Positions 12,189 to 37,138 of a DNA stretch of 37,144 nucleotides are shown here, piece by piece. Source of the DNA: Selenomonadales bacterium (GTDB lineage: Bacteria > Bacillota > Negativicutes > Sporomusales > UBA7701); NCBI GenBank assembly GCA_029975165.1, contig JARKPR010000055.1, forward strand, positions 1 through 37,144, read 5' to 3'. The stretch's first letter is position 1, and every line of letters begins with the position of its first letter. The notes beneath the pieces were generated by a model. That model was not told where the DNA came from. It did not search any database and saw only the letters and a list, made by a program, of their open reading frames with translations. The position numbers and the translations under genes are program-made.

Positions 12189-12208
12189 GGGAAGGGTGCG
12201 AGCGGGCA

Positions 12209-16353: not shown

Positions 16354-16354
16354 G

Positions 16355-17215
16355 TCACTTCCCTCCTCCGGCTAGTTCTTCGTAGGCCGCTTTGAGAACC
16401 CGGCCGATGAGCACGCCGACGACCGCTTCCTTGTACTGCTTGTTGCGCGGGTTGCGCAGGCGCAGCTCGGGTGGGACGGCTTTCTTCACCTCTGCCAGGC
16501 AGGCGTCGATGCTTTTGCCGACGAGCGCTTTTTCCAGGCTGGGGACCCTGACGGCCGTGGGGCCGACCGCGCCGAGGGCGATGGCGATGTCCTTGCAGAC
16601 GCCGCCTTCGGCGGTCAGGCGGACGGACGCCGAGACCTGGGCGATATCCTGGGCCTTGCGTTTGGCCAGCTTGGCGAAGGCGCTGGCCGTACCGGCGTCG
16701 GTGACGGGGATGCGGATTTCTTTGATGAGCTCGCCGGGTTCGAGTTGGGTTTTGCAGTAGGCCACGAACATATCTTTGGTTTCGACGACCCGCTCGCCGC
16801 CGAGCTTGGCGAGGACGATGCGGGCCCCGAGGGCCATGAGGGCGACGTTGCAGTCGGCGGCCGGCACGGCGGTGCCGATGTTGCCGGCCGGGGTGCCGAC
16901 GACGCGGATGGGGGCCGAGCCGATCTCCCGCACGGATTGGATGAGGCCGGCGAACTTCCCGCACAGGGGGGAGGCAAGAACGTCTTTATAGGTCGCCGTG
17001 CCGCCAATGGAGACGAAGCCGGCTTCTTCCTTGATGGTTTTCAGCTCGGGGATGCCCTGGATGTAGACGATGGCTTCGGGATCGACCGCGCGGTGCGCGA
17101 GTTTCTCGACGATGTCGGTGCCGCCGTTGACGATGACGGCTTTGTCCCGGTACTTGTCCAGCAGCGCCAGCGCTTCGGCAAGCGTCTTGGGACCGAAATA
17201 CAGAGTTTCCTTCAT
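16355..17215 (-). CDS. Molybdenum hydroxylase, FAD-binding medium subunit
   Basis: A 286-residue CoxM-type subunit that passes electrons from the iron-sulfur clusters to NAD or another acceptor. FAD-binding signatures are VNGGTDI (about 31-37), IGGTATY (about 70) and the TPAGNIGTAVPAADC stretch (about 107-121), followed by the C-terminal CO-dehydrogenase flavoprotein domain. ATG at 17215 is chosen because GAGGAGG lies 8 bases upstream; an in-frame GTG at 17224 overlaps that ribosome site. It has no 4Fe-4S insertion of the kind seen in 4-hydroxybenzoyl-CoA reductase, which argues against that function. It lies between the large and small subunit genes. Confidence 0.93.
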   Translation of the reverse strand: MKETLYFGPKTLAEALALLDKYRDKAVIVNGGTDIVEKLAHRAVDPEAIVYIQGIPELKTIKEEAGFVSIGGTATYKDVLASPLCGKFAGLIQSVREIGSAPIRVVGTPAGNIGTAVPAADCNVALMALGARIVLAKLGGERVVETKDMFVAYCKTQLEPGELIKEIRIPVTDAGTASAFAKLAKRKAQDIAQVSASVRLTAEGGVCKDIAIALGAVGPTAVRVPSLEKALVGKSIDACLAEVKKAVPPELRLRNPRNKQYKEAVVGVLIGRVLKAAYEELAGGGK

Positions 17216-17233
17216 TCTGCCCACCTCCTCTGG

Positions 17234-19552
17234 TTAAGCTTTGCCGTTTTTCTGGATTTCCGCCAGCACGGTCCGCGCCGTAAGGGGGATGGCGTTCATC
17301 TTGATGCCGAGGGCGTCCCAGACGGCGTTGCGGATGGCCGGCGCGGCGGGGATGATCGGCGGTTCGCCGATGCCCTTGGAGCCGAACGGGCCAAGCTCGT
17401 TGGGATGCTCGACGATGATCGATTCGAGGTCCGGCAGGTCTTTGATGGTGGGGATCATGTAGTTGTGGAAGGCGGCGTTTTGCATGACGCCGTTTTCCAT
17501 GACCTGTTCTTCCATGACGCCCCAGCCGATGCCCTGCGCGGCGCCGCCTTCCATCTGCCCTTCGACGGCAGCCGGGTTGATGGCTTTGCCGACGTCGCAG
17601 GCGAATACCGAGCGGTCGACGGTGATGACGCCGGTCTCGGTGTCGACGGAGATTTCGATGGCATGGGCGCCGAAGGCATAGGCGTGCATCGGTTCGCCCT
17701 GGCCGTCCTCGGCCCGGAAACTGGGCTGGGGCGGGTACCAGACGCCGGTGGCCGCCAGGGGCACCTGGCTGGCGTAGGCTTTGGCGATGAGGGCGGCGAG
17801 GCTTTCGGCCGTCTCGGGCTTGCCGACGACGAATATTTTGCCGCCTTCGATGGCGAGGTCGCGGGGGTCGGCTTTGAACGGTTTGGCGGCGAAGGCGAGC
17901 AGCCGGTCTTTGAGCTGCCGGCAGGCGTCGAGGACGGCGTTGCCGACCATGACCGTGGAGCGCGAGCCGACCGTGGGGCCGGAGTCGGGAGCGCGGCCGG
18001 TGTCGGAGAAGCTTACGAGGACGTCCTCGTAGTTGAGGCCGAGCGCTTCGGCCGCCATTTGGGCCATTACGGTCATGACGCCTTGGCCCATCTCGGTCGA
18101 GGCGATGTTGACGTTGAGCGTGGCGTCGTTGTTGAGCACGGCGAAGCAGGAGGCGCCCTCGAACAGCAGGGGGATGCCGGTGCCGTACATGAAGACGGCG
18201 AATCCGCGGCCGCGCTTGACGGGGCCGGCGCTCTGGGCGAGCGGCTTATCCCAGCCGATGCTGTCGCGGACTTTGTCCATGCACTCTTCGAGGCCGAGGC
18301 CGCGGCTTTCTTTCATGACCTGGCCGTAGATGGTGTGGTCGCCGTCGCGGAGGATGTTTTTGCGGCGGAGTTCGATCGGGTCCATGTTGAGTCTGCGGGC
18401 CAGTTCGTCGATCTGGCATTCGACGGCGAAGATGGCCTGGGGAACGCCGAAGCCGCGGAAGGCACAGGAATAGGGGGTATTGGTGAACACGGAATAGGAG
18501 CGGGCCTTGGCGCTGGCGACGGCATATACGCCGGCGGCGTAGGCCGCGGTCCGCATAGTGACGGCGTGGGCCGGCTCGCGCAGGCCGCCCATCGAGGTGT
18601 AGGCGCCTTTGTTGAGGACGGTCTCGACGTCGACGGCGGTGATTTTGCCCTCCTTGGTCGCGGCCATGCGGTGTTTGATATAGGTGGCATGGCGTTTGCC
18701 GGTGGTGCGGAAGACTTCTTCGCGGGTCAGTTCGAAGCAGACCGTCTTTTTGGTTTTGAGGGCCAGCACGCCGGCCACGGCCGCCACGTCGAGCGAGGAG
18801 TCCTCCTTGCCGCCGAAGCCGCCGCCGACGATCGGCGAGGATACCCTCACCTTGTGGTGCGGCAGGTTGAAGACGGGGGCGAGGCAGCGCTTGGTGGCGT
18901 AGACGGCCTGCTGGGCGCAGATGAGGTGCAGGCCGCCGGTGAGGTCGTCGGGCTCGGCGATGCAGATGTCAGGCTCGAGGTAGCAGTGCTCGACCATCGG
19001 GGTTTCGTAGTAGTTTTCGATGACGATGTCGGCTTCACGGAAGGCTTTTTCGACGTCGCCGCGGTCGAGCTTGACGACGGTCAGAAGATTGCCTTTGTCG
19101 GCGGCGGGGTGGTTGGGGTGGATAAGGACGGCATCGTCCTTCATCGCTTCGCGGGGGTCGTCGTAGGCCGTGAGAACCTCATACTCGACTTTGATGAGTT
19201 CCAGGGCCTTGGTGGCGATCTCCTCGGTGACGGCGGCTACGAGGGCGACTGGGTCGCCCTCGTAGCGCGTTTTACCGTCGGCGATCACTGGCTTGTCGGG
19301 AACCATGATGCCGTATCCGTTGCGGCCAGGCAGGTCTTTGGCGGTCATGACGGCCGCTACGCCCGCGAGTTGTTCGGCCGCCGACGTGTCGATACTCTTG
19401 ATCAGGGCGTGGGGATATTTGGCCCAGAGTGCCTTGGCGACAAGCATGTCGCCGCGCTTGAAGTCGGACGTGTACCTGGCCCGACCGGTAGCTTTGGCGA
19501 GGGCCTCGGCCCGAGCGACGCTCCGGCCGACGATTCTGAGTCCCTTTTTCAT
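17234..19552 (-). CDS. Molybdenum hydroxylase, molybdopterin-binding large subunit
   Basis: A 772-residue catalytic subunit of the xanthine dehydrogenase/aldehyde oxidase family, hydroxylating an N-heterocycle or oxidising an aldehyde with water. Signatures are VEHCYLEPD (about 197), the cofactor loop GGGFGGKED, CAFRGFGVPQ, STEMGQG, and the catalytic glutamate E730 in SKGIGEPP. The start follows GGGAGGGCAGGAA. The operon also carries yqeB and xdhC-type genes that in other bacteria accompany selenium-dependent hydroxylases such as purine hydroxylase, so a labile selenium ligand is a reasonable inference. The neighbouring acylating aldehyde dehydrogenase and MFS carrier point to a catabolic, imported substrate. 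That substrate is not identifiable. Confidence 0.93.
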   Translation of the reverse strand: MKKGLRIVGRSVARAEALAKATGRARYTSDFKRGDMLVAKALWAKYPHALIKSIDTSAAEQLAGVAAVMTAKDLPGRNGYGIMVPDKPVIADGKTRYEGDPVALVAAVTEEIATKALELIKVEYEVLTAYDDPREAMKDDAVLIHPNHPAADKGNLLTVVKLDRGDVEKAFREADIVIENYYETPMVEHCYLEPDICIAEPDDLTGGLHLICAQQAVYATKRCLAPVFNLPHHKVRVSSPIVGGGFGGKEDSSLDVAAVAGVLALKTKKTVCFELTREEVFRTTGKRHATYIKHRMAATKEGKITAVDVETVLNKGAYTSMGGLREPAHAVTMRTAAYAAGVYAVASAKARSYSVFTNTPYSCAFRGFGVPQAIFAVECQIDELARRLNMDPIELRRKNILRDGDHTIYGQVMKESRGLGLEECMDKVRDSIGWDKPLAQSAGPVKRGRGFAVFMYGTGIPLLFEGASCFAVLNNDATLNVNIASTEMGQGVMTVMAQMAAEALGLNYEDVLVSFSDTGRAPDSGPTVGSRSTVMVGNAVLDACRQLKDRLLAFAAKPFKADPRDLAIEGGKIFVVGKPETAESLAALIAKAYASQVPLAATGVWYPPQPSFRAEDGQGEPMHAYAFGAHAIEISVDTETGVITVDRSVFACDVGKAINPAAVEGQMEGGAAQGIGWGVMEEQVMENGVMQNAAFHNYMIPTIKDLPDLESIIVEHPNELGPFGSKGIGEPPIIPAAPAIRNAVWDALGIKMNAIPLTARTVLAEIQKNGKA

Positions 19553-26005: not shown

Positions 26006-26459
26006 AAAAAAATCCTCCGCCCGATTTCCTAGTAGTGAGAATTTTCTATTCGGCAGCCCCTTCCCTTTGTTTTACCTTCAGGCGTAGGGCGGCGTAACTC
26101 GCGTGCTGCGTCAATACATAACAGGCCGGGCAAACCAAGTCAGCGGGTGTCCCGGTGTCCGTACCACCGTATATATTCGCCAATCGATAGGGAAATACCT
26201 TCCTTGATGTAATTTTTCGACAAATAACATGATTCGGCGACATGGACGGCAGGTTTTTTGCAGGCGGACAAGGACAGGCGGAATTAGCTGATATGGCGGC
26301 CGGGCGAAATTTCCGCTTGTTATCGGGATTTTTCCGCCGCCGGGACCGGGGAGGAGATTCCTGCGGAATGCCGAATCCTGACTATTGCCCGGCGCACGGG
26401 ACGAAGTTTGTCGGCGCAGTGCCGGACAGGAGTGAACGATATTGGGTGAGGGATATTTG
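26006..26459. other. Divergent intergenic region between gntR and pdxA-like genes
   Basis: About 450 bases of lower GC than the flanking genes, without a convincing gene. It must hold promoters for both directions. On the plus strand TTGATG (26204-26209) and TAACAT (26225-26230) are spaced only 15 bases apart, which is weak. A small hairpin, ATTCC-TGC-GGAAT, lies at 26357-26369. An open frame at 26242-26460 overlaps the pdxA start by one base but lacks a ribosome site and protein-like composition. I see no clear operator. Confidence 0.4.
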
Positions 26460-27461
26460 ATGATGAAACCGGTTCTGGGTATCCTGCTGGGCGATGCCGC
26501 GGGCATCGGGCCGGAGCTCGTCGCCAAGCTGCTGGCGGCAGGGAAGTTCGAGGAGCATTGCCGCCCGGTGGTGATCGGCGACGCCCGGGTGCTGGCCAGG
26601 GGGATGGCGGTCGCCGGCGTGTCGCGGCCGGTGGCGGCGATCGACGCCGTGTCCCGGGCGGCCTGGGGTGCGGCGGTTCCGTTCCTGGACCTGAAGAACG
26701 TCGACCCGGATAAGGTGGCGGTCGGCCGGGTGGACGAAGCGTCGGGCAAGGCGACAGGCGACACGCTCGTAACCGCTTTGCGCCTGACCGAGCAGGGCGC
26801 CCTGGACGGGTTCGTGTACGCGCCGCTCAACAAGGCGGCGCTGCAGCGCGGCGGCTACGGGTTCGAGGACGAGCTGCGGCTGTTTGCCCATTACCTGGGC
26901 TGGGACGGGCCGTGCGGGGAGATGAATTATCTGCGCGGGCTGTGGACGGCGCGGGTGACGAGCCATATCCCGCTGGAGGCGGTGTGCGCCAGCCTGAGCG
27001 TGGCCGGCATTGTCGGCGTGGTGAAGCTGGCGGACCGGACGCTGCGCCGGGCCGGGGTGGACCGCCCGCGCGTGGCTGTGGCGGCCGTGAACCCGCATGC
27101 CGGCGAAAGCGGGTTGTGCGGCCGCCAGGAGATCGAGGTCATCGCGCCGGCCGTGCAGGCGGCGCGGGCCGAAGGTATCGACGCGCTGGGGCCGTATCCG
27201 TCCGATGTGGTATTCATCAACGCGTTCAAGGGTCAGTACGACGCGGTCATCACGATGTTCCACGACCAGGGGCAGATCGCGATGAAGCTGATGGGCTTCC
27301 AGGCCGGGGTGACGGTGGCCGCCGGCCTGCCGTACGCCATCACGACGCCGGTTCACGGCACGGCGTTCGACATCGCCGGCCGGGGCGTGGCCGACACGGG
27401 GGCGCTCGCCGCGGCGGTGGCCCTCGCCGCCAGGATGGCCGCCGTGGACAAGTCGCGGTGA
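26460..27461 (+). CDS. PdxA-family dehydrogenase (4-hydroxythreonine-4-phosphate dehydrogenase-like)
   Basis: A 333-residue NAD(P)-dependent, divalent-metal oxidoreductase. It has GILLGDAAGIGPELVAK at the N-terminus and the three metal-binding histidines of the family: H169 (TSHIPL), H213 (NPHAGE) and H268 (MFHDQGQIAMK). PdxA makes a vitamin B6 precursor, but PdxA2-type paralogues oxidise D-erythronate- or D-threonate-4-phosphate, and TphB acts on terephthalate dihydrodiol. No DUF1537 kinase or other B6 gene is nearby, and an IclR regulator follows, so a catabolic role is likelier. The ATG at 26460 follows GTGAGGGA by 6 bases. Substrate unknown. Confidence 0.88.
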   Translation: MMKPVLGILLGDAAGIGPELVAKLLAAGKFEEHCRPVVIGDARVLARGMAVAGVSRPVAAIDAVSRAAWGAAVPFLDLKNVDPDKVAVGRVDEASGKATGDTLVTALRLTEQGALDGFVYAPLNKAALQRGGYGFEDELRLFAHYLGWDGPCGEMNYLRGLWTARVTSHIPLEAVCASLSVAGIVGVVKLADRTLRRAGVDRPRVAVAAVNPHAGESGLCGRQEIEVIAPAVQAARAEGIDALGPYPSDVVFINAFKGQYDAVITMFHDQGQIAMKLMGFQAGVTVAAGLPYAITTPVHGTAFDIAGRGVADTGALAAAVALAARMAAVDKSR

Positions 27462-27555: not shown

Positions 27556-28332
27556 ATGGCAGGCGGGCAGACGCCGGCGGTCAAATCCGCTTCCCGGACC
27601 CTCGACATCATCGAGTTTATCGTCAAAAGCGCCAAGCCGCCCAATTTCACCGTCATCCGCAATCATATGGATATCCCGAAAAGCTCGCTGTCGCTGCTGC
27701 TGCACGAGCTGGTCAACTGCGATTATCTCGATTTCGACCCCGAGGCCAGGGTCTATTACCCCGGACTGAAGCTCATCCAGATCAGCGCGAGTTGCATCAA
27801 CAACACCAACATCTCGCGGGAGATCTCGCTGGGGATCAAGCGGCTGAGCGACGACTTCGGCGAGACGACCCACGCGGGCATCCTCGACGGACGGCACATC
27901 GTTTACATCGCCAAGCACCACGGCTCCCGCGACGTGAGCGTCGTCGCCACGATCGGCTACCGTATCCCGGCCCACGCCACCGCCATCGGCAAGGTGCTGC
28001 TGGCGACGCTGCCGGCGGCGGAGCTGAACGCCAGAGTCGGCTCGGTCCAATTGGAGCGCTACACCGACAACACGATCACCGACTTCGCGGCCCTGACCGC
28101 CGAGCTTGTCAGGGTGGCGGCGCAAGGGTACGCGGTCGACGACCAGGAGATCATCCCCGGCGGCATCTGCGTGGCCGCCCCCATCGTCGACAAGACGAAC
28201 AAGACGGTGGCGGCGCTGAGCGTGACGATGGCGGCGGGCCGGGCCTACGATGGCAATACGCTGCCGGCGGTGATCGACAAGGTGCGGACCGCGGCCGGTC
28301 TCGTTTCGATGCGGCTGGGAAAAGTGCAATAA
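27556..28332 (+). CDS. IclR-family transcriptional regulator
   Basis: A 258-residue regulator. The N-terminal winged helix (about 10-70) includes ASRTLDIIEFIVKS and a recognition helix in MDIPKSSLSLLLHELVNC. The C-terminal IclR effector domain (about 85-255) has IGYRIPAHATAIGKVLLA and VDDQEIIPGGICVAAPIVD, the standard ligand-pocket segments. It probably controls the iorA operon, whose upstream region carries two tandem palindromes, and perhaps the pdxA-like gene just before it. The start follows AAGGGGGTGA. A TTGCCC-GGCA-GGGCAA hairpin lies in the 94-base gap after pdxA. Effector unknown; IclR proteins often sense aromatic or short-chain acids. Confidence 0.92.
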   Translation: MAGGQTPAVKSASRTLDIIEFIVKSAKPPNFTVIRNHMDIPKSSLSLLLHELVNCDYLDFDPEARVYYPGLKLIQISASCINNTNISREISLGIKRLSDDFGETTHAGILDGRHIVYIAKHHGSRDVSVVATIGYRIPAHATAIGKVLLATLPAAELNARVGSVQLERYTDNTITDFAALTAELVRVAAQGYAVDDQEIIPGGICVAAPIVDKTNKTVAALSVTMAAGRAYDGNTLPAVIDKVRTAAGLVSMRLGKVQ

Positions 28333-28555
28333 GAGAATTTTATCGGCAGCCAGGCAGGAAAATCGTAACAAGGAAAAGAATAAGGCCATTAGATAGGTTG
28401 TTATGTTCATATATATGAACTTGGTTCATTATGATGAACAAATCCGCCCGGCCCGGGCGCCGGCCGCCGATTGGCAGGGCGGGCCGGGAGTATGGGCCGG
28501 CCGCTTGTGTGTTAGGAACGGGGCATTGTTCGAGTTTTAATGAGGAGGAAAATCG
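28333..28555 (+). other. Control region and leader of the iorAB operon
   Basis: This gene-free stretch holds an AT-rich half with two tandem palindromes and a GC-rich half able to form a leader hairpin (CCCGGCCCG 28447-28455 with CGGGCCGGG 28480-28488). I found no convincing -35/-10 pair; -10-like sequences (TATATA, TATGAT) fall inside the palindromes. GGAGG for iorA is at its right end. Confidence 0.45.
28405..28439. promoter_or_regulatory. Two tandem palindromic operators, predicted IclR sites
   Basis: GTTCATATATATGAAC (28405-28420) is a perfect 16-bp palindrome. GTTCATTATGATGAAC (28424-28439) has the same arms, GTTCAT-N4-ATGAAC, with a different core. Their centres are 19 bp apart, about two helical turns. 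They lie between the IclR gene and iorA, so the adjacent IclR protein is the natural candidate. Confidence 0.65.
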
Positions 28556-30370
28556 ATGCAAAAAGAGTTCATGCTGGGCAACGAAGCGATCGCCCGGGCG
28601 GCCGCCGAGGCCGGGGTCAAGGTGGTCGCCGGCTATCCGGGGACGCCGGCCACCGAGATCGTCGATCTGTGCGGCGGTTATCCCGGGGTTTACGCCGAAT
28701 GGTCGACGAACGAGAAGCACGCCTTCGAGGTGGCGACGGCCGCCTCGCTCACCAACCAGCGGGCCATGGCGGTCATGAAGCACAACGGGACGAACGCGGC
28801 GACGGATTTCCTGATGCACGTCAATTTCACCGGGGTGCGGGCCGGCCTTGTTCTTATTTCCGCCGACGACCCCGGCGGCCTGTCGTCCCAGTGCGAGGAA
28901 GACACCCGCATTCTGATCCATAATTACGCCCACCTGCCGATGTTCGACCCGTCGAGCGTCCAGGAGGCCTACGCCATGACCAAGGCGGCGTTCGCGCTGT
29001 CGGAGCAGACGGAGCTGGTCTTCGCCCTCCGCCCGGTGATGCGTATCAACCATGCCGGCGGCATGGTGGAATACGGCGAGATCAAGCAGGACAGCCGCCC
29101 GGCCGAGTTCGTGATCGACCGCAAGCGGTTCGTGATGTCGGCGGTGGTGGAGAAGGAGTCGGGCGGCGAACTGCGGCCGAAGATGCGCCATCGCTGGCTG
29201 AACGCCAAGCAGGACGAGCTCAAGGCGTTGATGGAGGCTTCGCCGTTCAACTGGACGGAAGCGGCGCCGGGGGAAACCGGTTTCGTCGGCTGCGGCATCG
29301 GCTACGCCTTCCTCAAGGAGGCCGAGCGCATCCATGGCGCCAAGCTGCCCATCCTCAAGCTGTCGACGCTGCCGCTGCCCGAGGGCAAGGTGCTCGATTT
29401 CGTCCGCGGCCTGAAAAGGGTCGTGGTGTTCGAGGAGGTCGAGCCGGTCGTCGAGAACCTGCTGAAGCAGTTGTGCTTCGAGCACAAGATCGTCCTCGAG
29501 GTGCTGGGCCGCAGCGAGTTTTTGCCCAAGGAGGGCGAGCTGTCGGCCAACCTGGTGCTGACGGCGGTGAAGGCGGCCCTGGAGGGCAAGCCGTACCCGG
29601 CGCCGGCGCCGGCGCAGTACGTTTCGGCGCGGACGCGCACCCAGTGCTCCGGCTGCAGCCACCGCGGGCTGCTGATCGCCCTCAAGGAGGTCGTGCGCAA
29701 GAACGGCGGCGTCGTCACCGGCGATATCGGCTGCCACGACGCCGGCACCTTCGAGCCGATGAACCTGCAGGCGACCATTTACTGTATGGGGTCGTCCATC
29801 CCGATGGCCTACGGCGTCAAGAAGGCCGGCTTCGCCAAGCCGGTGTACGCGCTGATCGGCGATTCGACCTTTTTCCATAACGGCCTGACCGGCCTGGCCA
29901 GCGCCATTTATAACGGCGGCGACATCACGGTGATCGTCGCTTACAATTCGACGACGGCCATGACCGGCTTCCAGCCCCACCCCGGCAGCCCGACCAACCT
30001 GCGCCAGCCGATCGCGCCGATCGAGCCGGGGGCGGTGGCGGCGGCGATGGGGGCGAAGGTGTTCCGCTGCAACCCTTACAATGTGGAGGAAACGGCCCGG
30101 GTGATCGAGGAAGCGACGGCGGCCGAAGGGGTCAAGGTGGTGGTCGCCGAGGCGCTGTGCTATCTGAAGTTCGGCCGCGAGGGCAAGCTGTCGTTTACGC
30201 CGCGCAAGGTGGCGGTGGATGAGGCGGTGTGCAACGGCTGCGGCCTGTGCGTGCGGACGTTCGGCTGCCCGGCCATTACGCTTAAGGACGGCAAGGCGAC
30301 GATCGAGCCGAGCGGCTGCAACGGCTGCGCGGTGTGCGTATCGGTATGCAAAAGGGGGGCTATAAAATGA
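28556..30370 (+). CDS. iorA: Indolepyruvate:ferredoxin oxidoreductase-type alpha subunit
   Basis: A 604-residue thiamine diphosphate enzyme subunit that, with IorB, oxidatively decarboxylates a 2-oxoacid to an acyl-CoA, CO2 and two reduced ferredoxins. It has AGYPGTPATEI (22-32) in the pyrimidine-binding domain, QCSGCSHRG and GDIGCHDAG in the cofactor region, GDSTFFHNG...NSTTAMTG in the diphosphate-binding domain, and two C-terminal ferredoxin clusters, C559/C562/C565/C571 and C588/C591/C594/C598. Known members prefer aryl pyruvates, but the following CoA-ester genes leave the substrate open. The start follows GGAGG. It overlaps iorB by 4 bases (ATGA). Confidence 0.93.
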   Translation: MQKEFMLGNEAIARAAAEAGVKVVAGYPGTPATEIVDLCGGYPGVYAEWSTNEKHAFEVATAASLTNQRAMAVMKHNGTNAATDFLMHVNFTGVRAGLVLISADDPGGLSSQCEEDTRILIHNYAHLPMFDPSSVQEAYAMTKAAFALSEQTELVFALRPVMRINHAGGMVEYGEIKQDSRPAEFVIDRKRFVMSAVVEKESGGELRPKMRHRWLNAKQDELKALMEASPFNWTEAAPGETGFVGCGIGYAFLKEAERIHGAKLPILKLSTLPLPEGKVLDFVRGLKRVVVFEEVEPVVENLLKQLCFEHKIVLEVLGRSEFLPKEGELSANLVLTAVKAALEGKPYPAPAPAQYVSARTRTQCSGCSHRGLLIALKEVVRKNGGVVTGDIGCHDAGTFEPMNLQATIYCMGSSIPMAYGVKKAGFAKPVYALIGDSTFFHNGLTGLASAIYNGGDITVIVAYNSTTAMTGFQPHPGSPTNLRQPIAPIEPGAVAAAMGAKVFRCNPYNVEETARVIEEATAAEGVKVVVAEALCYLKFGREGKLSFTPRKVAVDEAVCNGCGLCVRTFGCPAITLKDGKATIEPSGCNGCAVCVSVCKRGAIK

Positions 30371-30963
30371 AGTTCGATTTAGTGATCGCCGGCGTCGGCG
30401 GCCAGGGGAACATTCTCGCCTCCCAGGTTATCGCCAAGTGCGCGATGGAGGCCGGCTACAACGTCGTGAATACGGAAACCAAGGGCGCGGCCCAGCGGGG
30501 CGGCTCGGTGCTGTCCCACGTGCGCATCGCCGACGGCGAGATCTATTCGCCGCTCGTGCCGGTGGGGCAGGCCGACGTGCTGCTCGGCTTCGAGCCGCTG
30601 GAGGCGCTGCGCTATATAAATCTGCTGAGCAAGGACGGCAAGTTCATCATCAATACCGCCCCGGTGCCGACCATCCTCGCGAATATGAAGGTCGACGAGT
30701 ACCCGAGCACCGAGCAGATCGTGGCGACCATCAAGGAGAAGGGGCTTGACGGGTATTTCCTCGACGCCACCAAGGCGGCCAAGGAGCTCGGCAACATCCT
30801 GCTGACCAACGTGGTGATGCTGGGGGCGTTCACGGCGGTGAGCGACGTGCTGGCGCCGGAAGTCATCCTGGCGAAGCTGCTGACGATGGTTAACGAGAAA
30901 TTCCATGAGGACGACAGCCGCGCGTTCGAGCTGGGCCGCGGCATGATAAGCAAGGAGGGCTGA
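30367..30963 (+). CDS. iorB: Indolepyruvate:ferredoxin oxidoreductase-type beta subunit
   Basis: A 198-residue gamma/beta-type subunit of 2-oxoacid:ferredoxin oxidoreductase. It opens with LVIAGVGGQGNILASQVI and carries TETKGAAQRGGSVLSHVRI, the typical CoA/domain-III signature of IorB. ATG at 30367 is chosen because it forms the ATGA overlap with the iorA stop and is preceded by AAGGGGGGC; the in-frame start at 30334 lies inside the iorA cluster motif. The ribosome site of the next gene lies within its last codons, so the whole block is translationally linked. Confidence 0.93.
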   Translation: MKFDLVIAGVGGQGNILASQVIAKCAMEAGYNVVNTETKGAAQRGGSVLSHVRIADGEIYSPLVPVGQADVLLGFEPLEALRYINLLSKDGKFIINTAPVPTILANMKVDEYPSTEQIVATIKEKGLDGYFLDATKAAKELGNILLTNVVMLGAFTAVSDVLAPEVILAKLLTMVNEKFHEDDSRAFELGRGMISKEG

Positions 30964-30965
30964 GC

Positions 30966-32441
30966 ATGGCGCTCATGACAGGAGCCCAGTATGAGGAAAG
31001 CCTGCGGAAGATGCGGTTCAACCTGTATCTGCAAGGCGAAAAGGTCGAGTGCCCGGTCGATCACCCGATCATCCGCCCGTCGCTGAACGCGGTGAAGATG
31101 ACGTACGATCTGGCGCACGACCCGGCCCACGAGGAGCTGATGACCGCCACCTCGCATCTTTCCGGCGAGAAGGTCAACAGGTTCACCCATCTGCACCAAA
31201 ACGCCGACGACCTGGTAAAGAAGGTGAAGATGCAGCGGCTGCTCGGCCAGAAGACGGGGTCGTGCTTCCAGCGCTGCGTCGGCATGGACGCGATGAACGC
31301 CGTGGACACGGTCACCTTCGAGATGGACCGGGATCTGGGGACGCAGTACCACGCCCGCTTCGAACAGTTCCTGCGCCTGGTCCAGGACGAGGACCTGACG
31401 ATCGACGGCGCCATGACCGACCCGAAGGGCGACCGCAGCCTGCCGCCCCATAAGCAGGCCGACCCCGACATGTACCTGCGGGTGGTGGAAAAACGGCCCG
31501 ACGGCATCGTCGTGCGCGGGGCGAAGTGCCACCAGACGGGGGCCTTGAACTCCCACTGGATCCTCGTCATGCCGACGATCAGCATGGGCGAGGAGGACGC
31601 CGACTACGCCGTCTGTTTCGTCGCGCCCGCCGACAGCGCCGGCATAACCTACATTTACGGCCGTCAGTCCTGCGACACCCGCAAGCTCGAGGGCGGCGCA
31701 CTGGACGTCGGCAACGCGACGTTCGGCGGCCACGAGTCGCTGGTGATCTTCGAGGATGTCTTCGTGCCGTGGGAAAATGTATTCATGTGCGGCGAATACC
31801 GCTACAGCGGCATGCTGGTGGAGCGCTTCGCCGGCTACCACCGCCAAAGCTACGGCGGCTGCAAGGTGGGCGTGGGCGACGTGCTCATCGGCGCCACCGC
31901 CCTGGCGGCCGAGTACAACGGCGCCGCCAAGGCGTCGCACGTCAAAGACAAGCTCATTGAGATGGTCCACCTCAACGAGACGCTGTACGCCTGCGGCATC
32001 GCCTGTTCGGCCGCCGGCGCGCGGACGGCCTCCGGCACGTACCTGATCGATATGCTGCTGGCCAATGTCTGCAAGCAGAACGTCACCCGCTTCCCGTACG
32101 AGATCGCCCGCCTTGCCGAGGACATCGCCGGCGGCCTGTTCGTGACCATGCCGTCGGAGAAGGACCTCCGCCATCCCGAGATCGGGCCGAAGATCGAGAA
32201 ATACCTGGGCGGCACGTCCGGGGTCCCGACCGAGGACCGTCTCCGCGTGCTGCGGCTGATCGAGAACCTCACCCTCGGCACGGCGGCCGTCGGCTACCGC
32301 ACCGAGTCGATGCACGGCGCCGGCTCGCCCCAGGCGCAGCGGATCATGATCGCCCGCCAGGGGAACATCGAAGCCAAGAAAGGGCTGGCGAAGAAGATCG
32401 CCGGCGTAGCCGGCGAGGATACGAAACAGGGGAAAAACTGA
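30966..32441 (+). CDS. 4-hydroxybutyryl-CoA dehydratase-like flavin/[4Fe-4S] radical enzyme (AbfD family)
   Basis: A 491-residue protein closely resembling AbfD of Clostridium aminobutyricum along its whole length. The [4Fe-4S] ligands are present as C100 and C104 (SCFQRCVGMD) and H292 and C299 (GYHRQSYGGCKVG), nearly the same numbering as AbfD (99, 103, 292, 299). The essential TESMHGAGSPQAQR segment is kept. AbfD removes water from 4-hydroxybutyryl-CoA through a ketyl radical to give crotonyl-CoA. The same fold includes 4-hydroxyphenylacetate hydroxylases, but those lack these cluster ligands. One pocket stretch reads SHWILVMPT where I recall SHEHIIMPT in AbfD, so the substrate may differ. 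It lies 2 bases after iorB. Confidence 0.9.
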   Translation: MALMTGAQYEESLRKMRFNLYLQGEKVECPVDHPIIRPSLNAVKMTYDLAHDPAHEELMTATSHLSGEKVNRFTHLHQNADDLVKKVKMQRLLGQKTGSCFQRCVGMDAMNAVDTVTFEMDRDLGTQYHARFEQFLRLVQDEDLTIDGAMTDPKGDRSLPPHKQADPDMYLRVVEKRPDGIVVRGAKCHQTGALNSHWILVMPTISMGEEDADYAVCFVAPADSAGITYIYGRQSCDTRKLEGGALDVGNATFGGHESLVIFEDVFVPWENVFMCGEYRYSGMLVERFAGYHRQSYGGCKVGVGDVLIGATALAAEYNGAAKASHVKDKLIEMVHLNETLYACGIACSAAGARTASGTYLIDMLLANVCKQNVTRFPYEIARLAEDIAGGLFVTMPSEKDLRHPEIGPKIEKYLGGTSGVPTEDRLRVLRLIENLTLGTAAVGYRTESMHGAGSPQAQRIMIARQGNIEAKKGLAKKIAGVAGEDTKQGKN

Positions 32442-32467
32442 GCACATAGAGAGTGGAGGAGATAAGC

Positions 32468-33607
32468 ATGCGATTCGATTTGACCGAAGACCAGGCGATG
32501 ATGCAGAAGATGGTTCGGGAGTTCGCCGAGAAGCAGATCGGGCCGGGGGCGGCCGAGCGGGACGAGAAGGAAGAGTTCCCCCGCCACCTGTATGACGCGA
32601 TGGGCGAGCTCGGCCTGACCGGCATCTATTTCCCGGAAAGCTACGGCGGCGCCGATGGCGACTACCTGAGCTACATCCTGGCGGTGGAGGAGATCTCCCG
32701 CTTCGACGACGCCCTGGGCGTGACGCTGGCGACCTCGGTGTCCCTCTGCCAGGGCCCCATCTATGCTTACGGGACCGAGGAGCAAAAGCAGAAATACCTC
32801 GTGCCCCTGTGCCAGGGCAAGAAGCTCGGGGCCTTCGGCCTCACCGAGCCGAACGCCGGCACCGACGCCGCCTCCCAGCAGACGGTCGCCGTCCTGCAGG
32901 GCGACCACTACGTCATCAACGGCAGCAAAATTTTCATCACCAATGGCGGCGAGGCGGAAACATACGTAATCTTCGCCATGACCGACAAGGCGAAGGGCGT
33001 GAAGGGCATTTCGGCCTTCATCCTCGAAAAAGGCATGCCGGGCTTCACCTTCGGCAAGAAGGAGCACAAGCTGGGCATCCGCGGCTCACAGACCATGGAG
33101 CTTATCTTCCAGGACGTGAAGGTGCCGGTCGCCAACCTGCTCGGCAAGGAAGGCGAGGGCTTCAAGATCGCCATGGCCACGCTCGACGGCGGCCGTATCG
33201 GCATCGCGGCCCAGGCCCTCGGCATCGCCCAGGCGGCCCTCGACCACGCCATCAAGTATTCCAAGGAGCGCGTCCAGTTCGGCAAGCCGATATCGTCCAA
33301 CCAGGCGATCGCCTTCATGCTCGCCGACATGGTCACCAAGATCGACGCCGCCCGCCTGCTCACTTACCGCGCCTGCTACTGCAAGGACAAAGGCGTGCCG
33401 TTCTCCAAGGAGGCCGCCATGGCCAAGATGTACGCCTCGGACGTCGCCATGGCCGTCACCACCGACGCGGTGCAGATTTTCGGCGGCTACGGCTTCAGCC
33501 GCGAGTACCCGGTAGAGCGGCTGATGCGCGACGCCAAGATCACCCAGATTTACGAAGGTACCAACCAGGTCCAGCGGATGGTCATCTCGGGAGCCATCCT
33601 CCGCTAA
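32468..33607 (+). CDS. Acyl-CoA dehydrogenase
   Basis: A 379-residue FAD enzyme of butyryl-CoA dehydrogenase type and length. The flavin contact GAFGLTEPNAGTDA lies at 121-134, FITNGGEA at 156-163, the FGKPISSNQAI substrate loop at 271-281, and the catalytic base is probably E363 in IYEGTNQVQR. It would interconvert a saturated acyl-CoA and its 2-enoyl-CoA. No EtfAB genes are in the window, so electron transfer must use proteins encoded elsewhere. ATG at 32468 follows GGAGGAG by 6 bases; the GTG at 32453 overlaps the ribosome site. It follows the AbfD-like gene by 26 bases. Confidence 0.95.
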   Translation: MRFDLTEDQAMMQKMVREFAEKQIGPGAAERDEKEEFPRHLYDAMGELGLTGIYFPESYGGADGDYLSYILAVEEISRFDDALGVTLATSVSLCQGPIYAYGTEEQKQKYLVPLCQGKKLGAFGLTEPNAGTDAASQQTVAVLQGDHYVINGSKIFITNGGEAETYVIFAMTDKAKGVKGISAFILEKGMPGFTFGKKEHKLGIRGSQTMELIFQDVKVPVANLLGKEGEGFKIAMATLDGGRIGIAAQALGIAQAALDHAIKYSKERVQFGKPISSNQAIAFMLADMVTKIDAARLLTYRACYCKDKGVPFSKEAAMAKMYASDVAMAVTTDAVQIFGGYGFSREYPVERLMRDAKITQIYEGTNQVQRMVISGAILR

Positions 33608-33637
33608 AAACGGAGGCAGGATAAGGAGCGATACAGC

Positions 33638-34054
33638 ATGGTGCAGGATATACCGTTCGCCGCCGTCAAGGTCGGCGACAAGGCGAGCATGAGCAAGACG
33701 GTGAGCGAGCACGACGTGTATACCTTTGCCGGCGTGACCGGAGACTTCAACCCGGTGCACATCAATAACGAGTTCGCCAAACAGACGATGTTCAAGGAGC
33801 GGATCGCCCACGGCATGCTGTCGGCAGGGTTCATTTCCGCCGTGCTTGGCACGACCCTGCCCGGAGCCAATACCATCTACCTGGGGCAGGAGCTTTCCTT
33901 CCGGGCGCCGGTGAAGATCGGCGACACCGTGACCGCCACAGTGGAGTGCGTCGAAAAGATCGAGGCCAAGAACCGGCTGATTTTCCGGACGACGGTCACC
34001 AACCAGGACGGCGTGCTGGTCGTCGACGGCAAGGCGACCGTACTCAAAAAGTAA
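33638..34054 (+). CDS. MaoC-like (R)-specific enoyl-CoA hydratase
   Basis: A 138-residue hot-dog-fold hydratase. The hydratase-2 signature FAGVTGDFNPVHINNEFA (30-47) carries the catalytic pair D36 and H41, and FRAPVKIGDTVTATVECVEK follows as in PhaJ-type enzymes. It should add water to a 2-enoyl-CoA, such as the crotonyl-CoA expected from the two preceding enzymes, to give an (R)-3-hydroxyacyl-CoA. This differs from the (S)-specific crotonase usual in butyrate fermentation. The start follows AAGGAGC. It is the last gene of the iorA operon, and a hairpin follows. Confidence 0.92.
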   Translation: MVQDIPFAAVKVGDKASMSKTVSEHDVYTFAGVTGDFNPVHINNEFAKQTMFKERIAHGMLSAGFISAVLGTTLPGANTIYLGQELSFRAPVKIGDTVTATVECVEKIEAKNRLIFRTTVTNQDGVLVVDGKATVLKK

Positions 34055-34188: not shown

Positions 34189-35202
34189 GTGGAAAAGGTA
34201 ACGATCAAGGATGTCGCCAAACACGCCGGGGTATCGGTCGCCACCGTATCGCGGGTCGTAAATAACAATTATTACGTCAGCCCCGAGGTCGCCCGGACGG
34301 TCGTGCAAGCGATCAGCGAGCTTAAGTACGTGCCCAACCTCGTTGCCAGGAGCCTGAAGAAGGACGCCACGTTTTCGCTGGGGGTCCTGGTTTCCGATAT
34401 CACCAACAACTATTTCATCGAAATGGCCAAAGCGGTCGAGGATATCGTGAGCAAACAAGGCTACAGCCTGATCGTCTGCAGCACGGAGAACAGCAGGAAG
34501 CGGGAGCTCGCCTACCTCGAGCTGCTGATAAGCCGGAAGATCGACGGCCTGATCCTCAACACCACCGGCGAAAACGACGAATACGTCGTCGGGCTGAGCA
34601 GGAAGATTCCGGTGGTGGCCATCAACCGCAAGATCAAGGACACCGGTTTCCGCGGCGATCTCGTAGACAGCAACAGTATCCAGGGGGCTTACGAGCTGAC
34701 CACCCACCTGCTGGACCTCGGCCACCGGAAAATCTTTGTCCTCAATGGTTCGCTCAGCGTCAGCACGGGCCGCGAGCGGTTCGCGGGCTTCCAGAAGGCG
34801 ATGCGCGAGGTCGGCATCAAGGTAACCGACAACTATCCGTACCGCTACGACGGCAACTTCACCCTCGAAGCCGGCTACCAGGGGGCGGCCGCCTGGGCGC
34901 GCCTCGCCGACCGGCCGACGGCGATGATCGTTATGAACAACATGATGACAGTCGGCGCCCTGAAATACATTCAGACTCACGGCATACGCGTGCCGGAGGA
35001 AATGTCGATCGTCTCGTACGAACGGATAGAGAATATCGAGCTGTTTTCGGTCCAGCCGACGATCGCCGCTTCCGACCCCTCGCTGATGGGCGGCAAGGTG
35101 GCGGAGCTCATGCTGGAGAGAATCCAAAGCAGCGGCCTCAACAACCGCGAGATCGTCTTCCAGCCGAAATTGCTTATCGGCAACGGAGAGGGCAGGATTT
35201 AA
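34189..35202 (+). CDS. LacI-family transcriptional regulator
   Basis: A 337-residue repressor. Residues 3-22 form the LacI helix-turn-helix (VTIKDVAKHAGVSVATVSRV), YVPNLVARSLKK (about 47-58) is the hinge helix that inserts at the operator's central CG, and the rest is the periplasmic-binding-protein-like effector domain (SLGVLVSDITNNYF, DGLILN, LGHRKIFVLNG, TAMIVMNNMM). GTG is used as the start, after AAGGGG by 6 bases. A perfect 18-bp palindrome lies 6 bases after its stop, upstream of the SDR gene. It probably represses the SDR-tctC unit until a sugar acid or similar ligand is present. Ligand unknown. Confidence 0.94.
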   Translation: MEKVTIKDVAKHAGVSVATVSRVVNNNYYVSPEVARTVVQAISELKYVPNLVARSLKKDATFSLGVLVSDITNNYFIEMAKAVEDIVSKQGYSLIVCSTENSRKRELAYLELLISRKIDGLILNTTGENDEYVVGLSRKIPVVAINRKIKDTGFRGDLVDSNSIQGAYELTTHLLDLGHRKIFVLNGSLSVSTGRERFAGFQKAMREVGIKVTDNYPYRYDGNFTLEAGYQGAAAWARLADRPTAMIVMNNMMTVGALKYIQTHGIRVPEEMSIVSYERIENIELFSVQPTIAASDPSLMGGKVAELMLERIQSSGLNNREIVFQPKLLIGNGEGRI

Positions 35203-35208
35203 TTTGCT

Positions 35209-35226
35209 CAAGTAAACGTTTACTTG
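35209..35226. promoter_or_regulatory. Perfect 18-bp LacI-type operator
   Basis: CAAGTAAACGTTTACTTG is a perfect inverted repeat with the AACGTT centre typical of LacI/PurR-family sites. It lies between the LacI-family gene and the SDR gene. An SDR promoter was not clearly resolved; TTTAAT just upstream (35198-35203) could be its -10 element. Confidence 0.8.
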
Positions 35227-35274
35227 GGATTGCCGACACCTTTACCCCCTTATGTAAGGAGAGAGCGGACTTCT

Positions 35275-35293
35275 GCCCCGCCATGCGCGGGGC
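35275..35293 (+). other. Leader hairpin before the SDR gene
   Basis: GCCCCGC and GCGGGGC pair around a CATGC loop, 30 bases before the SDR start. No U-tract follows. It may be only a structured leader element. Confidence 0.35.
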
Positions 35294-35323
35294 GGAAAAT
35301 ATACAGGAAAGAATGGTGGTACT

Positions 35324-36088
35324 ATGTACGAAGTCAAAGGGAAAACAGCGATCGTCACCGGCGGCGGCACGGGCATCGGCAAGGCCGTGACGCTGATGCT
35401 GGCCGAACGGGGGGCCAACGTTGTCGTCAATTATTCGCGTTCGGAGAGCGACGCGCTCGCCACGCTCGCCGAAGTGAAGAAGCTCGGCGCCGACGGCATG
35501 GTCTGCCAGGCAAACGTCGCCAAGGATGCCGATGCGCGCCGCATGTTCCAGGAGACGATGGCCAAGTTCGGCCGCGTCGATATCGTCGTCAACAACGCCG
35601 GCACGACCGACCACGTGGCCATGGAAGACCTGGAAGGCTTGAAGGAAGAGTATTGGGACAATGTCTGGGATACGAATGTAAAAGGGCATTTTTTCGTCAT
35701 CCGGGCCTGCGCCGAAGAGCTGAAGAAAAATAAGGGCTGCGTAGTAAACGTTTGCTCGATCTCCGGCATCACCGGCCGCGGCAGTTCGATGGCGTATTGC
35801 GCCTCAAAGGCGGCGGCGATCAGCGTGACGAAATCGTTTGCCCATGTCCTCGCCCCCGACGTGCGGGTGAACGCGGTGCTGCCCGGCGTGGTCATGACCC
35901 GCTGGGTGGGCGACAAACCGGAGTTCGCCAGGAAGCTGTCGGCAGGGACGCCGCTCGGCCGGCCGGCCGAAGCCGGGGATATCGGCGACGCGGTCCTGGG
36001 CCTCATCACCGGGGGCACCTTCGTTACCGGCCAAGCGTTGATCGTGGACGGCGGCTACACGATCATCAACGGCAACAACATTCGCTAG
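35324..36088 (+). CDS. Short-chain dehydrogenase/reductase (FabG-like)
   Basis: A 254-residue classical SDR. It has TGGGTGIG (12-19) for the nucleotide, NNAG (90-93), and the catalytic N118, S145, Y158 and K162 (SISG...YCASK). The C-terminal VTGQALIVDGGYT is typical. Such enzymes oxidise or reduce a hydroxyl or keto group. A 3-hydroxyacyl-CoA, a sugar acid or a polyol are all possible, and the LacI regulator and TctC neighbour favour a hydroxy acid. The ribosome site is weak (GGTGG). The gene carries an internal near-copy of the LacI operator. tctC follows 39 bases later. Confidence 0.93.
   Translation: MYEVKGKTAIVTGGGTGIGKAVTLMLAERGANVVVNYSRSESDALATLAEVKKLGADGMVCQANVAKDADARRMFQETMAKFGRVDIVVNNAGTTDHVAMEDLEGLKEEYWDNVWDTNVKGHFFVIRACAEELKKNKGCVVNVCSISGITGRGSSMAYCASKAAAISVTKSFAHVLAPDVRVNAVLPGVVMTRWVGDKPEFARKLSAGTPLGRPAEAGDIGDAVLGLITGGTFVTGQALIVDGGYTIINGNNIR
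35744..35755. promoter_or_regulatory. Intragenic LacI-type operator copy
   Basis: GTAAACGTTTGC inside the SDR gene matches 11 of 12 bases of the operator core GTAAACGTTTAC. It lies about 532 bp from the main operator. The codons used (GTA GTA AAC GTT) are less GC-rich than this gene's norm for valine. It may be an auxiliary looping site, as lac O2 is, or chance within the conserved VVNV stretch. Confidence 0.35.
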
Positions 36089-36127
36089 GGGTTCCATGTT
36101 TCAAAAAATAAAAGGGGGATTGTAAGA

Positions 36128-37138
36128 ATGTTTAGCAGGAAGAACCGTTGGATTCTCGGGCTGATCGCGGTGGCGCTGAGCGTTATGCTCGTGGCCGGCT
36201 GCGGCGGCGGCAAGAGCGCCGATACGGCCAAGAAAGCGATCGATTATCCCAAGAAGCCGATCGAAATCATCGTCCCGTATGCAGCCGGCGGCGGCCAGGA
36301 CGTCATGTCCAGGATTACCGCCAAGTATCTCGAAAAGTATTTGCCCAACAACACGAAGGTCGTCGTGACCAACGTGCCCGCCGGTGGCGGCGTGCAGGGC
36401 GCGACCACGATCGCCAACATGAAGCCGGACGGCTACCAGGTGGGCGCGCTGGTGCCGTTCCAGTTCACCGACCAGTTCATCATGAAAGGCATCACCTATA
36501 ACGAGAAGAGCTTCGTGCCGGTGGCTATGCTGTCCGACGACGCCAACTTCATCGTCGTCCGTAAGGACCTCGGCGTGAAGAACATGAAGGAATTCATCGA
36601 GCTGGCCAAGAGCAAGCCCGAACAGATCACGATGGGCATGGGCGGCAACTGGAACGTCCACGACTTCCTCCGCCTGAAGGTCGAAAAGGCGACCGGCGCC
36701 AAGTTCAAGCGTATGCCGTTCAACGGCGGCGCCCCGGCCCTGGCCGCAGTGTCCGGCAGCAACTGTGACAGCTCCAGCCAGTCGATCTCCGAAGCCCTGG
36801 CCGCTATCGAAGCCGGCCATGTCATCCCCATCGCCGTGACGAGCGCCGAGCGTTCGCCGCTGGCTCCCAAAGTCCCGACCCTGAAGGAACAGGGCATTGA
36901 TGTCGTCCACGCCCAGTGGCGCGCCATCGTCGTAGCGCCCGGCACGCCGGAAGAGATCATCAAAATCCTCAGCGACGCGCTGAAGAAAGTATACGACGAC
37001 AAGGGCTGGCAAGAAGAAGCCAAGAAGGCCGGCCTGGAGCCGAAGTTCATGGACTACAAGCAATTCGGCGAATTCTACAAGAAGGACTTCGAAGTGTACA
37101 AGAACCTCATCAACGACCTGGGAATCAAGCCGCAGTAA
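36128..37138 (+). CDS. TctC/Bug-family solute-binding lipoprotein (second copy)
   Basis: A 336-residue binding protein with a signal peptide ending in the lipobox LVAGC (Cys at 25). It is followed by YPKKPIEIIVPYAAGGGQD, VPAGGGVQGA and KPDGYQVGALVP, the Bug-fold landmarks. It is clearly diverged from the tctC at 4753, so it likely binds a different carboxylate. The start follows AAAGGGGG. It is downstream of the LacI-controlled SDR gene. Its tctB and tctA partners are not in the window and would be expected just beyond the right edge; otherwise it may share the membrane subunits encoded at 2731-4707. Confidence 0.92.
   Translation: MFSRKNRWILGLIAVALSVMLVAGCGGGKSADTAKKAIDYPKKPIEIIVPYAAGGGQDVMSRITAKYLEKYLPNNTKVVVTNVPAGGGVQGATTIANMKPDGYQVGALVPFQFTDQFIMKGITYNEKSFVPVAMLSDDANFIVVRKDLGVKNMKEFIELAKSKPEQITMGMGGNWNVHDFLRLKVEKATGAKFKRMPFNGGAPALAAVSGSNCDSSSQSISEALAAIEAGHVIPIAVTSAERSPLAPKVPTLKEQGIDVVHAQWRAIVVAPGTPEEIIKILSDALKKVYDDKGWQEEAKKAGLEPKFMDYKQFGEFYKKDFEVYKNLINDLGIKPQ

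Follow-up and report, generated by a model that had tools for sequence, protein, structure and literature searches.

The window analysed here is the whole of one contig of 37,144 bases, which belongs to the draft genome of a Selenomonadales bacterium (4.19 Mb in 100 contigs). Its main subject is a block of five genes, all on the + strand, that joins a variant of the indolepyruvate:ferredoxin oxidoreductase (IOR) family, IorAB, to an AbfD-type dehydratase, an acyl-CoA dehydrogenase (ACD) and a MaoC-type hydratase. The enzyme families are known, and the new part is the pathway that they may form and the role of the IorA clade. Genomes and loci are referred to by labels beginning with G and L, respectively. 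The five genes are the following:

28556..30370, + strand: iorA variant, a 2-oxoacid:ferredoxin oxidoreductase subunit of the IOR family with thiamine pyrophosphate (TPP) and two [4Fe-4S] domains, in a separate clade (Pfam, TIGR03336, tree, group-specific residues)
30367..30963, + strand: iorB, gamma-type (POR) subunit (PF01558, 1.9e-36)
30966..32441, + strand: AbfD-type [4Fe-4S]/flavin adenine dinucleotide (FAD) 4-hydroxyacyl-CoA dehydratase (67% identity to 1u8v, motifs kept)
32468..33607, + strand: ACD/enoyl-CoA reductase, near the acryloyl-CoA reductase AcrC and butyryl-CoA dehydrogenases (Pfam, NF042972, PDB matches)
33638..34054, + strand: MaoC-type (R)-3-hydroxyacyl-CoA dehydratase/enoyl-CoA hydratase (PF01575, 5cpg)

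The original prediction had pointed to five tightly spaced genes at this place, and their coordinates, the ATGA overlap, the 2-base gap and the families were all confirmed. The single overlap joins iorA and iorB at 30367-30370, and the gaps that follow measure 2 bases between iorB and abfD, 26 between abfD and the ACD gene and 30 between the latter and maoC. A Shine-Dalgarno-like sequence precedes each of the five starts, and the G+C content at third codon positions is 0.86-0.91. The start of the ACD gene was placed at ATG 32468, which has a good ribosome-binding site; the listed open reading frame opens at GTG 32453.

The IorA clade and its partner enzymes

The IorA protein of the window has the traits of the broad IOR/POR superfamily, namely the TPP domain, two ferredoxin-type Cys motifs and a POR-gamma partner subunit. 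With the equivalog model for the IOR alpha subunit (TIGR03336) it scores 564.9 bits, below the curated cut-off of 650.9, and four variant relatives (575-642 bits) all fail as well, whereas four of four ordinary IorA proteins pass with 681-756 bits, one of them from the window's own genome. The iorB product lies under the curated cut-off of each of the 25 profile models listed for it (of 27). Full-length ordinary IorA proteins of the order are 33-41% identical to that of the window. In a tree of 30 IorA proteins, one branch with a support of 100/100 splits 16 variants from 14 ordinary proteins; among its rows, the ordinary L136 is very long and the variant L175 is truncated by a contig end. With L136 left out, 17 alignment columns separate the two groups, several of them beside the conserved TPP-enzyme motif (GDIGCHDAG in the variants versus GDIGCYTLG, TAMTGFQ versus TAMTGHQ, and GCS versus GCP), and 108 residues are conserved in both, including Cys 559, 562, 565, 571, 588, 591, 594 and 598 of the window protein. 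The changes near the TPP motif fit an altered substrate, without naming it. Indolepyruvate:ferredoxin oxidoreductase (TIGR03336/TIGR03334) thus has in common with the window enzyme the two-subunit layout, the TPP domain and the C-terminal [4Fe-4S] pair, but the separate clade, the score below the cut-off, the changed neighbours of the TPP motif and the sugar-acid and CoA-ester gene neighbours set the latter apart. On the first two of these counts, the original prediction's term IOR is not supported in its strict sense.

The variant IorA was detected in 12 of the 28 genomes of the order, in 3 of 398 of the phylum (own genome included; E <= 1e-150, with three candidates per genome scored in the listed rows), in 3 of the 46 genomes of the class of G414 and in 1 of the 3 of the class of G060, which gives 16 genomes when each is counted once. 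Since the IorA of G425 branches with those of the order (100/100), this copy may have moved between lineages.

The dehydratase shares 67% of its residues with a 4-hydroxybutyryl-CoA dehydratase of known structure (1u8v) and 61% with 6vjr, which is one residue short in its H-to-C spacing. It keeps CxxxC, H-x3-Y-x2-CK, HQTG and TESMHG, as do 9 further copies linked to iorAB. We take CxxxC and H-x6-C to be the cluster ligands, and the motifs with Tyr, Lys, Glu and Thr to belong to the active site. Judged by sequence, the window dehydratase groups with the true 4-hydroxybutyryl-CoA dehydratases. The enzyme of Clostridium aminobutyricum (1u8v) and the operons for 4-aminobutyrate (GABA) or 4-hydroxybutyrate are therefore close in identity and motifs, but a CoA-transferase gene, which many ordinary AbfDs have as a neighbour, is replaced in the window by a 2-oxoacid:ferredoxin oxidoreductase. 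All 16 genomes with the variant IorA contain an AbfD of at least 65% identity, compared with 8 of the 22 that lack the variant (p 3e-5, with no correction for kinship).

The AbfD tree comprises 111 rows, all matches of 55% identity or more, of which 13 (56-63%) form an outer clade; a CoA-transferase neighbour is labelled for 33 of the 111. The label 'IOR', given where a variant IorA lies within 6 kb, falls on 8 rows with 3 label changes counted, while L196 (G442, at a contig break) and L150 (G024, about 6 kb away) carry the label 'other'. When the tree is read with both relabelled, the AbfDs linked to iorAB occupy three places: one with the four distant genomes described below, one with the five genus members (both starred at 100) and one, that of G024, among AbfDs of ordinary clusters. 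As IorA is one clade and the linked AbfDs stand in three places, the trees indicate that the joining of AbfD to iorAB, or its exchange there for a different AbfD, happened more than once, and this argues that the pairing is selected.

The own genome also holds a distant AbfD-type protein of 41% identity at L154 (G000:C34:42000-60000), together with ACD, electron-transfer flavoprotein (ETF) and a 40% PdxA relative. A distant AbfD of this type stands with ACD in four sister genomes too.

The best NCBIfam model for ACD is that of the acryloyl-CoA reductase AcrC (NF042972, 523 bits, below the curated cut-off of 640), and its best PDB chains are 4l1f and 1buc. The MaoC protein has the PF01575 domain and matches the (R)-specific enoyl-CoA hydratase 5cpg at 1.3e-38. 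Its translation contains DFNPVH, which has the form D-x4-H, presumably the motif of (R)-specific enoyl-CoA hydratases of the MaoC/PhaJ type.

Conserved neighbourhood and paired palindromes

The order IclR-iorA-iorB-abfD-acd-maoC is kept in all 5 of the genus members examined, and iorAB-abfD-acd-etfBA is found in four distant genomes of three families (G060, G414, G425 and G442). In G060 a 4-hydroxy-2-oxovalerate aldolase lies upstream of the block, while the block of G425 comes with FixC and that of G414 with UxaA, HpaI and FixC. In G442 one contig end carries MaoC, IclR, UxaA, HpaI and IorA, and another IorB, AbfD, ACD, ETF, FixC, Hbd, thiolase and a PdxA relative; these ends (L175 and L203) were treated as neighbours by inference. 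The single-contig genome G024 presents a same-strand array of about 20 kb with UxaA_N, UxaA_C, IclR, a nickel-pincer isomerase, an HpaI-type aldolase, IlvD, IorA and IorB, followed by ACD, EtfB, EtfA, MaoC, AbfD, thiolase, Hbd and crotonase, interspersed with two small other frames. In the rest of the order, 6 of 7 genomes have iorAB with several of a two-part UxaA-type dehydratase, an HpaI-type aldolase, a nickel-pincer isomerase, an IlvD-type dehydratase, GlcD and transporters, and the seventh, G007, has only TRAP (tripartite ATP-independent periplasmic) transporter genes beside iorAB. The isomerase belongs to NCBIfam group 22 (576 bits, cut-off 400), and the words 'group 22' are absent from the main text of two papers on nickel-pincer enzymes (PMC7583248, PMC11770544).

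Within about 10 kb of the variant IorA, ACD is found in 14 of 16 loci, AbfD in 10, MaoC in 9 and ETF in 5; UxaA or IlvD occurs in 8 and an HpaI-type aldolase in 7, with a 4-hydroxy-2-oxovalerate aldolase in an eighth, the weak 31% BphI aldolase matches in L144 and L145 being left out of the count. Around ordinary IorA of the same order, over the same distance, ACD, AbfD, MaoC, UxaA/IlvD, HpaI aldolase and ETF each occur in 0 of 14 loci (Fisher p 8e-7 for ACD and 3e-4 for AbfD), where the query panel was built from the variant neighbourhoods and 4 of the 14 control loci (L218, L223, L227 and L231) are cut short by contig ends or fetch limits. Outside the counted genes, the control loci L228 and L229 gave two Hbd, one thiolase and one SDR (short-chain dehydrogenase/reductase) match.

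The original prediction had proposed a link between IOR and AbfD that would fall if the genes were not kept together; they are, in the five genus members and the four distant genomes, as an IOR-family oxidoreductase with an AbfD-type dehydratase in a kept neighbourhood. Chance adjacency was set aside on the linkage counts against ordinary IorA and on the shared palindromes described below. An AbfD-based scan, covering the 80 best matches of at least 72% identity in named loci, many of them short, found a variant IorA within 9 kb in 2 of the 80, both of this genus; the idea of an oddity confined to the genus was rejected when the IorA-based searches recovered the distant genomes.

In a second cluster type, AbfD stands beside an enzyme of the pyruvate:ferredoxin oxidoreductase (PFOR) type, in L209 (G007), L212 (G001), L204 (G025), L063 (Sporomusa acidovorans) and L054. 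GlcD is present in 4 of these 5 clusters, and ACD with ETF in L209, L204 and L063. They could represent a lactate-to-butyrate route or a parallel route into 4-hydroxybutyryl-CoA. Their use as proof of the same pathway was dropped, since isomerase, GlcD, PFOR, thiolase, Hbd and ACD could equally lead from lactate to butyrate.

Upstream of iorA lie the following features:

26442..27461, + strand: PdxA-like dehydrogenase, possibly linked to the operon (profile matches; a 58% relative downstream of the AbfD cluster in G442)
27556..28332, + strand: IclR-family regulator, kept beside the operon (Pfam, identity in relatives)
28405..28420, no strand: first palindrome GTTCATATATATGAAC, exact, 16 bp, candidate IclR operator (pattern search)
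28424..28439, no strand: second palindrome GTTCATTATGATGAAC, exact, 16 bp, its start 19 bp from that of the first

The 4 remaining genus members have an IclR protein 82-85% identical to that of the window, and 4 loci outside the genus have one of 61-73% identity, in one case as a partial match at a locus edge. No PdxA-like gene turned up near the operon in these four genus members, among which the locus of G002 is cut short upstream. Both palindromes sit between iclR and iorA. The pattern has 4 matches at no more than 2 mismatches, against 0.74 expected. Of the 12 variant loci in the order, 11 have pairs with starts 19 bp apart; these pairs precede iorA in the genus and, in other genera, mostly an operon that is led by UxaA or an isomerase. 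The 2.84 Mb of examined sequence (duplicates included) contain 30 pairs, 18 of them distinct, of which 17 are at variant loci and one is near a second IclR gene of G024; mononucleotide shuffles gave no pairs. Imperfect copies of the same palindrome also lie between IclR and the PFOR-type gene in L209 and L054. It is presumably IclR that binds the paired palindromes. One type of pair stands before the window operon and before those for sugar acids; if they belong to one regulon, the window operon, which has no dehydratase of its own, would be connected with sugar-acid breakdown.

A proposed route from sugar acids to acetyl-CoA

On balance, we favour the view that the operon supplies the CoA-thioester steps, one half of an anaerobic catabolic pathway for a sugar acid, most likely a pentonate, that ends in acetyl-CoA. 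UxaA and IlvD enzymes convert 2,3-dihydroxy acids to 2-keto-3-deoxy acids, and HpaI and BphI aldolases act on 4-hydroxy-2-oxo acids; the products of the former and the substrates of the latter thus point to a 4-hydroxy-2-oxo acid as the common metabolite, and this substrate, combined with the need of AbfD for a 4-hydroxyl, leads to 4,5-dihydroxy-2-oxopentanoate. UxaA/IlvD dehydratases, encoded beside the operon in relatives and elsewhere in the own genome, would form this 2-keto-3-deoxy acid from an aldonate, most likely a pentonate. The variant IorAB would then decarboxylate it oxidatively with CoA to 3,4-dihydroxybutyryl-CoA, reducing ferredoxin; MaoC would remove the 3-hydroxyl as water to give 4-hydroxycrotonyl-CoA; ACD with ETF would reduce this to 4-hydroxybutyryl-CoA; and AbfD would produce crotonyl-CoA, from which a hydratase, 3-hydroxybutyryl-CoA dehydrogenase and thiolase would yield two acetyl-CoA. 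For a pentonate the sum would be two acetyl-CoA, one CO2 and one net electron pair, which balances. The aldolase of the G024 array would be a branch, and every enzyme identified in that array would fit the scheme. IclR would respond to the sugar acid by way of the paired palindromes. The families, the AbfD motifs, the conserved linkage, the separate IorA clade and the shared palindromes are observed; we infer the reactions of IorAB, MaoC and ACD, their order and the C5 chain length.

The original prediction had assumed a 5-hydroxy-2-oxo acid as the substrate and had placed AbfD first, with MaoC and ACD on branches after it. IorAB would in that case convert 5-hydroxy-2-oxovalerate directly to 4-hydroxybutyryl-CoA and AbfD would give crotonyl-CoA, with MaoC and a dehydrogenase on the oxidising side and ACD/ETF on the reducing side. 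It is the shortest route to the 4-hydroxyacyl-CoA that AbfD needs, and the clusters with a PFOR-type enzyme, GlcD and AbfD (L209, L212, L063 and L204) could use a 2-hydroxy acid likewise. Yet we consider it unlikely, as the known reactions of UxaA/IlvD and of the HpaI/BphI aldolases point to a 4-hydroxylated substrate and we know of no common source of 5-hydroxy-2-oxovalerate. The earlier choice of substrate is probably wrong, given that the dehydratases and 4-hydroxy-2-oxo acid aldolases of the relatives and the shared palindromes favour a 2-keto-3-deoxy sugar acid. The same probably applies to the earlier order of reactions, because a 3-hydroxyacyl-CoA formed by the IOR-type enzyme puts MaoC and ACD, more simply, before AbfD. 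A further scheme keeps the C5 substrate and the IOR step and lets AbfD act directly on 3,4-dihydroxybutyryl-CoA to form acetoacetyl-CoA as its enol, with ACD and MaoC serving butyrate formation or overflow. It would be chemically possible by the ketyl mechanism of AbfD, as we understand it, and MaoC is missing near iorAB in G060 and G425; however, it leaves the strong ACD linkage (14 of 16) without a place in the main path, and 10 of 10 linked AbfD copies have the same motifs as the 4-hydroxybutyryl-CoA enzyme, so it has little probability.

Other chain lengths may also be considered. In a C4 route, threonate or erythronate would give 4-hydroxy-2-oxobutyrate, which IorAB, MaoC and ACD would take to 3-hydroxypropionyl-CoA, acryloyl-CoA and propionyl-CoA, respectively, with AbfD acting on another substrate. 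The AcrC model as the best match of ACD, though below its cut-off, the PdxA-like gene nearby (the PdxA family includes D-threonate 4-phosphate dehydrogenases) and the 6 of 16 genomes with iorAB but no abfD close by would agree with it. Butyryl-CoA dehydrogenases match ACD as well, however, and no role is left for AbfD, although it lies near iorAB in 10 of 16 loci and occurs in all 16 genomes, which makes this route rather unlikely, slightly more so than the one from 5-hydroxy-2-oxovalerate and slightly less so than direct action of AbfD on the dihydroxy ester. The same gene set would serve for a 6-deoxyhexonate (fuconate or rhamnonate), by way of 4,5-dihydroxy-2-oxohexanoate, 3,4-dihydroxypentanoyl-CoA, 4-hydroxyvaleryl-CoA and pentenoyl-CoA to propionyl-CoA and acetyl-CoA, and the HpaI-type aldolase matches the model of 2-keto-3-deoxy-L-rhamnonate aldolase (144 bits versus a cut-off of 441); AbfD would have to accept a secondary alcohol, and we regard this as improbable. 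The least probable reading is an ordinary IOR for aryl pyruvates that happens to be encoded next to an operon for butyrate or 4-hydroxybutyrate: the IOR-family domains are there, but the IorA clade is separate and scores under the equivalog cut-off, which 4 of 4 ordinary IorA tested pass, the repeated linkage is absent around 14 ordinary IorA, and the palindromes are shared with sugar-acid operons.

Several points weigh against the pentonate pathway. The substrate of the operon enzymes is deduced from gene context. The window cluster contains no sugar-acid dehydratase, and the five IlvD copies of the own genome are on other contigs; one operon with a two-part UxaA, IlvD and a nickel-pincer isomerase (L217, G000:C95:56000-68122), near the end of another contig that finishes in an IS110 copy, is a candidate source of the 2-keto-3-deoxy acid. 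The genes for the steps from crotonyl-CoA (Hbd, thiolase and crotonase) are documented here in relatives. A FixC gene next to ETF, as in three genomes, would be compatible with the oxidative direction of ACD too. Of the 16 loci, 7 have no MaoC near iorAB, and in 2 of the other 9 it is only about 30% identical to that of the window. ACD is lacking near iorAB in G011 (L151), and both ACD and sugar-acid dehydratases are lacking in G007 (L153). In G025, G026, G012, G011, G023 and G007, AbfD stands apart from iorAB, in clusters of the CoA-transferase/butyrate or PFOR type, so its role there could be separate. The AbfD presence test ignores kinship, 3 of its 38 genomes are less than 75% complete and G138 (64%) falls just under the threshold. 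As to the palindromes, the pattern was derived from the window, the 19-bp spacing was noticed before counting and the shuffles were only mononucleotide; five distant loci have only single imperfect sites.

Other features of the window and significance of the pathway

The operon is followed at 34189-37138 by LacI, an SDR (35324-36088) and TctC, a group kept in 2 of 5 genus members (the window and G004, where TctA comes further on). The SDR had been placed in the oxidative branch by the original prediction. With a LacI gene of its own in front of it and conservation in only 2 of 5 genus members, it is probably outside the block, in a separate LacI-SDR-TctC operon. An Rfam scan of the window gave no match at gathering scores.

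Positions 1-133 (to about 141) are the left, non-coding end of an insertion element of about 1477 bp of the IS110 family (DEDD_Tnp_IS110), with a full copy at G000:C76:1-1477 (L249). Each of the 14 distinct left-end junctions leads directly to AGG or GAGG, a Shine-Dalgarno-like sequence, and 12 of them have an open frame of at least 170 codons that begins about 6-12 bases past the AGG; the 15 right-end flanks have nothing obvious in common. The target thus looks like a ribosome-binding site, where the AGG may belong to the element or to the target. In G001-G005 the element gave only one weak 67% partial match, in G001, and a search of an open-access library showed no paper on IS110 insertion at Shine-Dalgarno sites. 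The window further contains a three-subunit molybdenum hydroxylase (2Fe-2S, FAD and molybdenum cofactor subunits; 15889-19552, minus strand, with 13941-15830 on the plus strand), near which are an aldehyde ferredoxin oxidoreductase, an aldehyde dehydrogenase-like gene, XdhC and a major facilitator superfamily transporter. At 9135-13006 on the plus strand lie the genes for a hybrid sensor of 1017 aa, which combines two histidine kinase modules with a receiver, and, after it, a LytTR response regulator.

In the Dahms pathway, a pentonate dehydratase is followed by an aldolase that yields pyruvate and glycolaldehyde, while the Weimberg pathway leads from pentonate to 2-oxoglutarate. With the former, the proposed route would share the dehydratase and class II aldolase families and the 2-keto-3-deoxy acid, but cleavage would not be the only fate of this keto acid, which would also be turned into a CoA ester by decarboxylation of the intact molecule. 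With the latter, it would share the oxidation of the same keto acid uncleaved, but through CoA esters and ferredoxin instead of a semialdehyde. The original prediction had noted no described operon that feeds AbfD from IOR, and searches of an open-access library, in which subscription journals are mostly absent, showed neither such an operon nor such a sugar-acid route; PMC7819960 and PMC9138338, in the portions available, are not about an IOR-AbfD sugar-acid route.

In its general form, the proposal is that an IOR-type clade of a few scattered Bacillota lineages decarboxylates an uncleaved 2-keto-3-deoxy pentonate to 3,4-dihydroxybutyryl-CoA, and that MaoC/ACD-ETF and AbfD, a radical enzyme, strip both hydroxyls to give two acetyl-CoA, CO2 and reduced ferredoxin, by neither the Dahms, the Weimberg nor the Entner-Doudoroff pathway; we hold this to be about evenly balanced between right and wrong. 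If true, it would assign a substrate class to an IOR-like clade that automatic annotation would liken to indolepyruvate oxidoreductase, and it would provide a new entry into 4-hydroxybutyryl-CoA chemistry as well as candidate enzymes with which C4 dihydroxy and 4-hydroxy acyl-CoAs could be produced from biomass acids. Furthermore, 2-keto-3-deoxy pentonates would have a third fate besides aldol cleavage and oxidation to 2-oxoglutarate, by which anaerobes would convert sugar acids to acetyl-CoA and reduced ferredoxin without free glycolaldehyde.

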